Below, piece after piece: positions 5,962-9,689 of a DNA stretch of 64,000 bases (position 1 is the stretch's first letter; each line of letters opens with the position of its first letter). Made by a program: the position numbers and the translations under genes. Source of the stretch: Chthonomonas calidirosea (GTDB lineage Bacteria; Armatimonadota; Chthonomonadetes; Chthonomonadales; CAJBBX01). The notes beneath the pieces were generated by a model that searched no databases, was not told the origin of the DNA, and saw only the letters and a list, made by a program, of their open reading frames with translations. The stretch covers positions 47,816 to 111,815 of the forward strand of contig DYKI01000004.1 in NCBI GenBank assembly GCA_020722705.1, given 5' to 3'.

Positions 5962-6849
5962 TCACGCCTTGAGGGCACCCATCAGCACCGCGCCGAAGAT
6001 GATCGCGGCGATCACGAGCCCGGCATACAACAGGGCGAAGGCCTCACTGCGCGCATAGTGGAACCGCCGCCAATGCGCCGCTACCACCACAACCGCCATC
6101 GGGACCAGAGCAGGAAGACGCATGCCGGTGATGAGCACCACCAGCATGTACAGGCTCAAGACGATCGTCAGAGGCCAGACCGTGCGGCGGTAGCCCTCAC
6201 GATCTCCAGCAAAGCGGCACATCGCAGCCGTGAAGAACGCGATGAACAGGAAATCCGCAAAGCCCACCACGGCGATCGGAGCCGCACCGGACGTCGGGGC
6301 AGGCAGCTTCACGGTCATTGCCTCTGCAACCTTCTGGGCGCCAGGACTCTCGCTTGTCATGATCTGATGGACAGGTCCGCCCATCGTCACGGTCCAAAGG
6401 TCAACGAGAGCCAGGACCGCAGCCACCGGAGGCACCATGTTGACGTCTCGGAGCACCCTGGACAGCAGGATGCCGCATCCCGCGCCGAGCCCGATAAACC
6501 CCAGCTCGGCGAGACCCGGGATGACCATGATCCAGCGCCAGGGCGGAACCATGAAACCGAAGGCAGCCATCGCCCTCAGCGGCACCACCGCAGCAGCGGC
6601 ACATAGCATCAGGATCAGCGCGCCGCGCAGCGAGCGTACCGTGCGCCCGAGCGCACCGGTCAACATGACGACGAGCGCCAGGGATATGAGCGTGCTGATG
6701 AGGACCGTCCCAATCCGGTCATCGCGGATTCTCGGCGCGATCTGCCAGTAGACCAGGTACGCCGCGATCGGCCATACCGCCCCCAATGGCCCGCTGCGGT
6801 CCGGGCTCTTCGGCTGCTGCTGGCTATTCTCTACCGTTTCCTGCTCCAT
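5962..6849 (-). CDS. Polytopic membrane protein; candidate divergent presenilin-like (A22) intramembrane aspartyl protease
   Basis: 295 residues with about eight or nine hydrophobic helices and no close family that I recognise by name. Two aspartates lie in successive helices: D150 in LALVDLWTV and D199 in VGFADFLF. A PAL triplet follows at 246-248 in RLPALVPMAV. This order and spacing (49 and 47 residues) resembles the YD, GxGD and PAL motifs of presenilin and signal-peptide-peptidase proteins; the segment after D150 (AEAMTVKLPAP) also resembles the archaeal homologues. YD is VD here and GxGD is GFAD, so both motifs are off consensus. It is convergent with the GDPD gene and divergent from the ANTAR regulator. 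An unrelated membrane protein remains possible. Confidence 0.5.
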   Translation of the reverse strand: MEQETVENSQQQPKSPDRSGPLGAVWPIAAYLVYWQIAPRIRDDRIGTVLISTLISLALVVMLTGALGRTVRSLRGALILMLCAAAAVVPLRAMAAFGFMVPPWRWIMVIPGLAELGFIGLGAGCGILLSRVLRDVNMVPPVAAVLALVDLWTVTMGGPVHQIMTSESPGAQKVAEAMTVKLPAPTSGAAPIAVVGFADFLFIAFFTAAMCRFAGDREGYRRTVWPLTIVLSLYMLVVLITGMRLPALVPMAVVVVAAHWRRFHYARSEAFALLYAGLVIAAIIFGAVLMGALKA

Positions 6850-7871: not shown

Positions 7872-9689
7872 ATGTCGGCGTTCTCCAGAAGCGGCAAGCT
7901 CCACGCGAAGTTTCGCAGCCTCTTCCGAAATCGAGCTCACGGCCCGGCGGTGGCACCGCCTGACCCCGCTTCGGCGAATGACCCAGAGGCCCTTCGTCAC
8001 GAGATCGAACTTCGCGACGCCGCACTGCGCGAGGCCGAGCAGGTCATCGGCTCGCTTCGCAGGGAGCTGGACGAGCGCCGGCTCGAGGTGGATGCGCTGA
8101 GACGCGTCGGAGAGGCCGTCGGGGCCATTTTCGACATCGAGGACATGCTCAAGGTCACGGTTGACGTAGCCATCCACGTAACCGGCACCGACTCCTGCCA
8201 GGTCTACCTCCTCGATCCCCGCACCAACGAGCTCGTGCTCCGGGCTGCCGACGAGACGGGCCGGAGCATGATCGGCCGCATCCGCTTGAAGGTTGGAGAG
8301 GGCATCACCGGCTGGGCAGCACGCGAACGCAAGCCCGTCGCCGTATCCCGCAACGCCTCCGCCGATCATCGCTTCAAGTACTTTCCGGAAATCCATGAGG
8401 AGGAATACCAGAGCATCCTCTCCGTACCCCTCCTGTCTCGCAACCGCGTCCTTGGCGTCGTCAACGTACGCACGCGCGAGCCGAGAGAATACAGCAAGGT
8501 CCAGATGCGCCTGCTGTCCAGCATTGCGGGCCAGGTCGCCGGAGCGATCGAAAAGGCCCGGCGCACCCGCGACCTGGAGCGGACCGCAGTCCAGCTTCAG
8601 CACCTTTCCGAGGTCAGCGAAGCCATCATGTCGAACGTGTATCTCGACGACATGCTTTTCAAGTTCGTCGAGATGACCGCGCGAGCGATGTCCTATCGCA
8701 TCTGCACCATCATGCTCGTAGACCATCAGTCGCAGGAGCTTGTCATCAAGGCCACGTGCGGATCCGACGGAAAAGCCCCCATTCCCGAATACGTCTCCAA
8801 GCCCCCCGTCAAGATCGGTGAGAGTATCGCCGGTCGAGCGGCACGTGAGGGTCGTGTGATGACGGTAGCGGACGTCAAGAAGCATCCCCATACCCGCTTT
8901 CCCGACATTGCCGAGCGTGCGGGGCTGACCTCCCTTGCGTCGGTTCCTCTCATGATCAAAGGCGAGGTCCTTGGCGTTCTCAACTGCTACACCGAGCGGG
9001 TCCACGAGTTCACCCCCGAGGAGCTGACCATCCTTCAGGCGTTGGGCGCCCAAGCAGCCCTGGCCATCCAAACCGCTCGCCTCATGATCAAGTCAGCCGT
9101 CATCCAGGAGATGCACCATCGCGTCAAGAACAACCTTCAGCAGATCGCCAGCCTCGTGCGGCTTCAGATGCGCTATAGCGCATACGCGACGGTTGAGGAG
9201 GCCATGAACGACACCCTGAGCCGCATTCAGGCCATTGCTGCCGTACATGAGCTCCTCCTGAGCCACGACCTCGACAGTGTCAGCATCGGCAGGCTGGCCG
9301 AGCAGATACTGACGGCAACCAAACAGAGCGTCGTCGCCCCGAGCAAGTCCATCGTAACCGAGGTGTCCGGCCCCGACGTGCGCCTCCCCCTCAGCCATGC
9401 CACCACCTTCGCGCTCGTCCTGAACGAGCTCGTCCAGAACGCGGTGGAGCACGGCTTTCGAGACACGTCTTCGGGCCGGATCGCCGTCACGACCATACAG
9501 GAAGACTCCGACATCGTCGTGACCGTCGCCAACGACGGCAGCCCCCTACCTGAGGGCTTCGATCCGACGCAGACCGGGCGTCTGGGCCTGAAGATCGTGG
9601 ACAGCCTCGTTCGGGGCGGTCTCAACGGCACGTTCGAGATGGAAAACAGCGACGGAATCGTGGCCCGGGTCAGGTTCCCGGCGCCGTAG
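7872..9689 (+). CDS. Soluble sensor histidine kinase, GAF-GAF-HisKA_2-HATPase
   Basis: 605 residues starting behind a GGAGG ribosome-binding site. Order: basic N-terminus, a coiled coil (about 38-75), a GAF domain (about 85-235), a second GAF domain (about 245-405), then the HisKA_2 phosphoacceptor helix EMHHRVKNNLQQ with the histidines at 415-416, and an HATPase domain with the N-box NELVQNAVEHGF and a GLKIVDSLV G-box. There is no membrane helix, so it senses a cytoplasmic ligand or redox state through GAF domains. HisKA_2 kinases typically pair with ANTAR regulators, as does this one with the preceding gene. The signal is not predictable from sequence. Confidence 0.92.
   Translation: MSAFSRSGKLHAKFRSLFRNRAHGPAVAPPDPASANDPEALRHEIELRDAALREAEQVIGSLRRELDERRLEVDALRRVGEAVGAIFDIEDMLKVTVDVAIHVTGTDSCQVYLLDPRTNELVLRAADETGRSMIGRIRLKVGEGITGWAARERKPVAVSRNASADHRFKYFPEIHEEEYQSILSVPLLSRNRVLGVVNVRTREPREYSKVQMRLLSSIAGQVAGAIEKARRTRDLERTAVQLQHLSEVSEAIMSNVYLDDMLFKFVEMTARAMSYRICTIMLVDHQSQELVIKATCGSDGKAPIPEYVSKPPVKIGESIAGRAAREGRVMTVADVKKHPHTRFPDIAERAGLTSLASVPLMIKGEVLGVLNCYTERVHEFTPEELTILQALGAQAALAIQTARLMIKSAVIQEMHHRVKNNLQQIASLVRLQMRYSAYATVEEAMNDTLSRIQAIAAVHELLLSHDLDSVSIGRLAEQILTATKQSVVAPSKSIVTEVSGPDVRLPLSHATTFALVLNELVQNAVEHGFRDTSSGRIAVTTIQEDSDIVVTVANDGSPLPEGFDPTQTGRLGLKIVDSLVRGGLNGTFEMENSDGIVARVRFPAP

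Follow-up and report, generated by a model that had tools for sequence, protein, structure and literature searches.

We identified, in a 64,000-nucleotide stretch of DNA from Chthonomonas calidirosea (the window), a gene, P0001, the product of which we interpret as a diverged bacterial intramembrane aspartyl protease of the presenilin/signal peptide peptidase (SPP) kind. We put the probability of this reading at about 85%; activity is inferred, and catalysis is very likely, if unproven. Presenilin is an Alzheimer's-linked protease that cuts proteins inside membranes, and enzymes of this type have been described in eukaryotes and archaea. The original prediction, made from the DNA alone, had proposed the same identity, and it is now supported by invariant aspartates and by an A22-like predicted fold, with proteolytic activity and the distance between the two aspartates still untested. 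The assignment suggests what a conserved protein, unnamed in Pfam and NCBIfam, may do and, if true, provides small stand-alone presenilin relatives for structural work, including natural Gly-to-Ala active sites, and bears on the origin of presenilin and SPP.

P0001 contains presenilin-like motifs

The translation of P0001 (295 amino acids) bears out the coordinates at which a membrane-protein ORF had been predicted; what the prediction had omitted is that the gene lies on the minus strand (Table 1), the plus-strand frame over the same interval being interrupted by a stop. Because an in-frame TAG precedes the ATG at 6849, this ATG is the first possible start. A search for RNA structure upstream of the gene revealed nothing (z-score 0.01), and as a single query P0001 found no match in Pfam, NCBIfam or the PDB.

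D150 in LALVDLWTV, D199 in VGFADFLF and PAL at 246-248 (RLPALVP), on which the predicted identity had relied, are exactly these residues in the translation. The two aspartates are 49 residues apart and P246 follows D199 after 47, compared with 58 and 56 (to the PAL equivalent) in the archaeal homologue PSH and 128 and 48 in presenilin-1. Of the archaeal spacing "58 and 41" given with the prediction, the first figure is therefore right and the second, measured as 56, is wrong. The presenilin-1 and PSH sequences that served as yardsticks were verified letter for letter over their full length (PDB chains 5a63_B and 4hyc_A).

Table 1. Features of P0001 and adjoining genes, in window coordinates.
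Feature	Position	Strand	Basis
Presenilin-like membrane protein P0001	5962..6849	-	ORF, translation, relatives, predicted fold
Helix 136-155, TM6 equivalent, first catalytic Asp D150 (codon 6400-6402)	6385..6444	-	Invariant Asp; helix in model
Loop 156-196 between catalytic helices: amphipathic helices 159-165 and 169-177 (TM6a-like), strands 179-181 and 194-196	6262..6384	-	Model secondary structure
G196-F-A-D199 (GxGD-type motif) and start of helix 197-214, TM7 equivalent	6208..6264	-	G196/D199 invariant; aligned with presenilin-1 GLGD385
PAL motif, residues 246-248	6106..6114	-	P/L conservation; aligned with presenilin-1 PAL
E269, near-invariant acidic residue, start of last helix	6043..6045	-	Row counts
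ANTAR response regulator, divergent from P0001	7026..7778	+	Pfam Response_reg and ANTAR
GAF-GAF-HisKA_2 sensor kinase adjoining regulator	7872..9689	+	Pfam

The putative catalytic residues are conserved across the family

Conservation was assessed with profile A1, an alignment of 69 family members with a mean column identity of 28%, in which D150, G196, D199 and E269 are invariant. In a larger count, which includes some duplicates as the same gene was taken from overlapping loci, D150 was kept in 130/130 rows and G196 and D199 in all 129 rows covering them; P246 was present in 123 and L248 in 119 of 129 rows, and the middle PAL residue was Ala in 87 and Gly in 35 of the 129. The invariance of D150, G196 and D199 holds down to about 20-30% identity and extends to two other phyla. 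Conservation of D150, D199 and PAL in homologues had been named as a check on the prediction; no homologue lacks either aspartate, and the Pro and Leu of PAL are each kept in over 90%. The residue before the D150-type aspartate is V, I, M, A or F in the family and not Y, as against the YD/FD motif of GxGD intramembrane aspartyl proteases. Residue 269 is Glu in 126 and Asp in 2 of 129 covered rows. To our knowledge, E269 is not a known A22 feature and is without a counterpart in presenilin; a possible partner is the conserved R212.

Since P0001 reads GFAD, it meets the GxGD motif only in the widened form Gx[GA]D, which is present in all rows, with Gly at residue 198 in 72 and Ala in 57 of 129. 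The "altered GxGD" of the prediction is thus borne out: Ala replaces the second Gly in Chthonomonadales and several other clades, and other clades keep GxGD. Members from other phyla read GLGD, GVGD, GMGD or GVAD, literal GxGD being found in all but one, and have PAL or PGI. On a tree of 112 distinct rows of at least 200 amino acids each, the distribution of Gly and Ala needs five changes, at least three of which are forced by supported branches, with the aspartate unchanged. G384A of presenilin is a familial Alzheimer mutation, and the switching between Gly and Ala at residue 198 mimics it. Both presenilin G384A and PSH G219A were slowed but not dead (PMC2947513), so Ala at this position does not rule out catalysis.

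Profile and fold comparisons link the family to presenilin

When profile A1 was compared with 177,635 PDB sequences, the presenilin-1 CTF was the sole match (E 0.0086), and the alignment keeps both GLGD and PAL in register. The score against presenilin-1 was 15.9 bits, whereas no control, among 1,000 block-shuffled sequences and 114 other membrane ORFs, scored above 3.2 bits. After enlargement of the profile with members from other phyla, the TM7-PAL part scored 13.6 against presenilin-1, and a second segment, weak when taken alone (2.8 bits), aligned D150 with D257 in the right order. Presenilin was also the Pfam family touched by most members (4/69, best E 0.055), and one member from another phylum matched PF01080 with E 0.0033 over model positions 327-395, that is, from GxGD to PAL. 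Genuine archaeal PSH itself matched the PF01080 model at only E 0.0039, and hence the distance between the family and presenilin is about that between accepted A22 branches.

The curated PF01080 cut-off of 34.3 bits was reached by no single member, the best being E 0.055 in Armatimonadota and 16.7 bits in another phylum. PF06550 (cut-off 23.9 bits) was found in 0/101 Armatimonadota genomes and 0/80 other bacterial lineages, with archaeal controls detected. Profile A1 did not reach archaeal PSH, and hhalign against the single PSH sequence gave no significant match. We conclude that the family is best classified outside the existing Pfam families, as a new branch of the presenilin/SPP kind in bacteria.

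AlphaFold2 with A1 yielded a model of P0001 with a mean pLDDT of 90.2 and a pTM of 0.87. It places helices at 25-40, 46-70, 74-97, 113-130 and 136-155, the last containing D150, followed by 197-214 with D199 near its start, 216-241, 248-258 directly after PAL, and 267-294. Structure prediction was a further check that had been proposed, with a fold unlike A22 as the refuting outcome, and in a Foldseek search of the PDB ranks 1-13 were all presenilin-1, presenilin-2 or SPPL2a (best E 0.011; probability 0.97-1.00 for the top ten), the first unrelated protein following at rank 14 with E 0.98. These matches have a TM-score of about 0.4 and a large rmsd, and none reaches E 0.001; compared with presenilin, the model lacks one helix ahead of the D150 helix and has an additional one behind PAL. 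In gamma-secretase with bound substrate, TM6a is present, and TM6 and TM7 give rise to two induced strands, which pair with the substrate (PMC7248309); in the predicted model loop 156-196 matches this TM6a/beta1/beta2 layout. Modelling of a PDZ-bearing member reproduced the membrane part (pLDDT 88.9). The fold search with this second model returned PDZ proteins only, mostly HtrA/Ctp proteases, and is uninformative on the membrane part because it was swamped by these matches.

Membrane orientation and domain fusions

The loop between the aspartates lies outside in SPP and on the opposite side in presenilin. In the family, the N-terminus and loops 2-3, 4-5, 6-7 and 8-9 have a high mean density of K+R, and loops 1-2, 3-4, 5-6 and 7-8 a low one, a pattern that by the positive-inside rule puts the inter-aspartate loop outside. 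This inference from loop charges suggests an SPP-like orientation, opposite to that of presenilin; the contrast in orientation between SPP and presenilin is described in PMC2947513. Against an outside C-terminus stands the C-terminal tail, which is fairly positive.

Two kinds of fusion bear on the same question. In family f15, a PDZ domain follows the last helix (PDZ_2, 1.4e-6; the fold matches HtrA/Ctp PDZ), and PDZ-like C-termini were seen at L119, L118, L110, L111, L113, L114, L116 and L120, by Pfam match for L119 and L111 and by alignment and eye for the other loci. In f17, a leader-like stretch and a carboxypeptidase-regulatory-like domain (PF13620) precede the protease domain, and a large soluble part comes after it. 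Both fusions are compatible with a C-terminus on the outside, unlike the positive tail.

The f17 fusions lie at L143:2041-4890 (-), L144:1924-4932 (-) and L145:2220-5177 (+); their C-terminal region resembles, by eye, a degenerate alpha/beta hydrolase, and in L143 the gene stands directly after a cyclase-AAA-TPR gene. In f32 (L106:2449-2949 (+), L103 and L108), a C-terminal extension of about 170 residues has no Pfam match.

Distribution and gene neighbourhood

Sequence searches found relatives of P0001 in 90/101 related genomes, and with profile A1 the family was detected in 269/291 Armatimonadota genomes (186/194 of the high-quality ones), usually in one copy. It also occurs in two other small bacterial phyla, in 3/3 and 4/10 genomes. 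Beyond these, no convincing member was found among 80 sampled bacterial lineages, and searches of plasmid and viral contigs returned zero relatives. Weak matches in other phyla (G327, G388, G357, G298 and G346) were not confirmed as members. One f16 genus and one small-genome f14 genus (G043, G056, G069, G193 and G194) are apparently without the gene.

An ANTAR response regulator lies divergently within 1.3 kb of the gene in 23/48 loci studied, with a GAF-HisKA_2 kinase next to it in 22/48; any functional link between P0001 and this neighbouring two-component system would be inference only. The arrangement belongs mostly to Chthonomonadales and is also found in families f5, f8 and f19. leuS lies downstream in nine loci, two of them from the same genome; in several families (L125, L127, L131, L132, L137 and L147) it closely follows the gene in the same orientation. 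In a different phylum, serS follows the gene (L165), and in one other-phylum genome (L169:1513-6999 (+)) the gene comes directly before a run of pseudopilin-like genes. Because the neighbours differ outside the ANTAR and leuS loci, we did not read function from them. We rejected a replacement of site-2 proteases by the family, as S2P is present in 20/20 genomes tested, also where the family is missing.

Alternative explanations

P0001 might have the presenilin fold without being a protease, serving as a channel, chaperone or binding protein in which the aspartates bind ions or protons. Half of the rows have Ala in GxGD, a replacement that makes presenilin and PSH slower (PMC2947513), the near-invariant E269 is without an A22 counterpart, and there is no known substrate. 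However, both aspartates, G196 and PAL are kept together without or nearly without exception, also in the clades with GxGD, the Gly-to-Ala change slows PSH without abolishing its activity (PMC2947513), and the PDZ fusions fit proteolysis; we regard a non-proteolytic role as unlikely.

Low overall identity, the TM-score of about 0.4 and a helix count that differs at both ends would also suit an unrelated multi-helix protein in which conserved aspartates arose by convergence. We hold this to be very improbable, since GxGD and PAL are colinear with presenilin-1 at nearly the same distance (47 versus 48 residues), presenilin is the only PDB profile match, the top of the fold list consists of presenilin/SPPL alone and the TM6a/beta pattern recurs. 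There is only the slightest chance that the family is related to the GxGD prepilin peptidases (A24) and processes pseudopilins, an explanation that fold and profile have already largely refuted: the PAL motif is present, no prepilin peptidase is among the 50 fold matches listed and P0001 has no Pfam A24 match. A24 enzymes likewise use two aspartates and GxGD, and L169 has the gene just before pseudopilin genes, but pilin neighbours were seen in that locus only.

Proposed mechanism and origin

As an intramembrane aspartyl protease, P0001 would have D150, on the TM6-like helix, and D199, at the N-terminal end of the short TM7-like helix, facing each other in the membrane; we infer this facing from the fold match and the colinear alignment. 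The PAL loop would complete the active site, and the two short strands before TM7 may receive the unwound substrate segment by strand pairing. With the inter-aspartate loop outside the cell, the SPP orientation inferred from loop charges, the substrates to be expected are type II (N-in) segments, for example remaining signal peptides or the anchors of membrane regulators. In f15, the PDZ domain that follows the last helix may control the entry or choice of substrates, as PDZ domains do in other envelope proteases. The removal of signal peptides or type II segments is a likely role, inferred, like the activity and the substrates, without experimental data.

Rhomboids, site-2 proteases and signal peptidases are the main subjects of reviews on intramembrane proteolysis in bacteria. 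A 2025 review mentions presenilin for mammals and an archaeal homologue (PMC12067869). We found no description of a bacterial presenilin in the open-access literature searched, subscription papers being outside the search, and because of this limit we do not claim a first in bacteria. We lean, with some reserve, towards an ancient and vertically kept bacterial presenilin/SPP lineage, near-universal in Armatimonadota and present in two further phyla, that has PDZ forms and repeatedly evolved the equivalent of G384A, in which case an archaeal-only origin of presenilin and SPP is to be reconsidered.

Comparison with known systems

Like presenilin (PF01080, MEROPS A22A), the family has an Asp on TM6, a TM7 GxGD followed by F-[LIV]-F, an LPAL sequence ahead of the last part, TM6a and two short strands before TM7, and nearly the same distance from D to PAL (47 in P0001 versus 48). 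It differs in having VD, ID or AD in place of YD, aspartates 49 and not 128 residues apart with no long cleavable loop, Gly or Ala before D199, the opposite predicted orientation and scores below the Pfam cut-off. With archaeal PSH/MCMJR1 (PF06550) it shares a prokaryotic, stand-alone form, GxGD and a similar D-D distance (58 versus 49), whereas PSH has PPL where the family has PAL. SPP/SPPL2a (A22B, PF04258) resembles P0001 by the SPPL2a fold match and the predicted outside position of the inter-aspartate loop, but no N-terminal protease-associated domain was seen in P0001. The FLF after GxGD in P0001 is presenilin-like and not SPP-like. The site-2 protease RseP (M50) has zinc chemistry and an unrelated fold, and site-2 proteases coexist with the family; RseP is nevertheless, as in f15, a membrane protease with an envelope PDZ, and likely shares with the family work on signal peptides and regulators.
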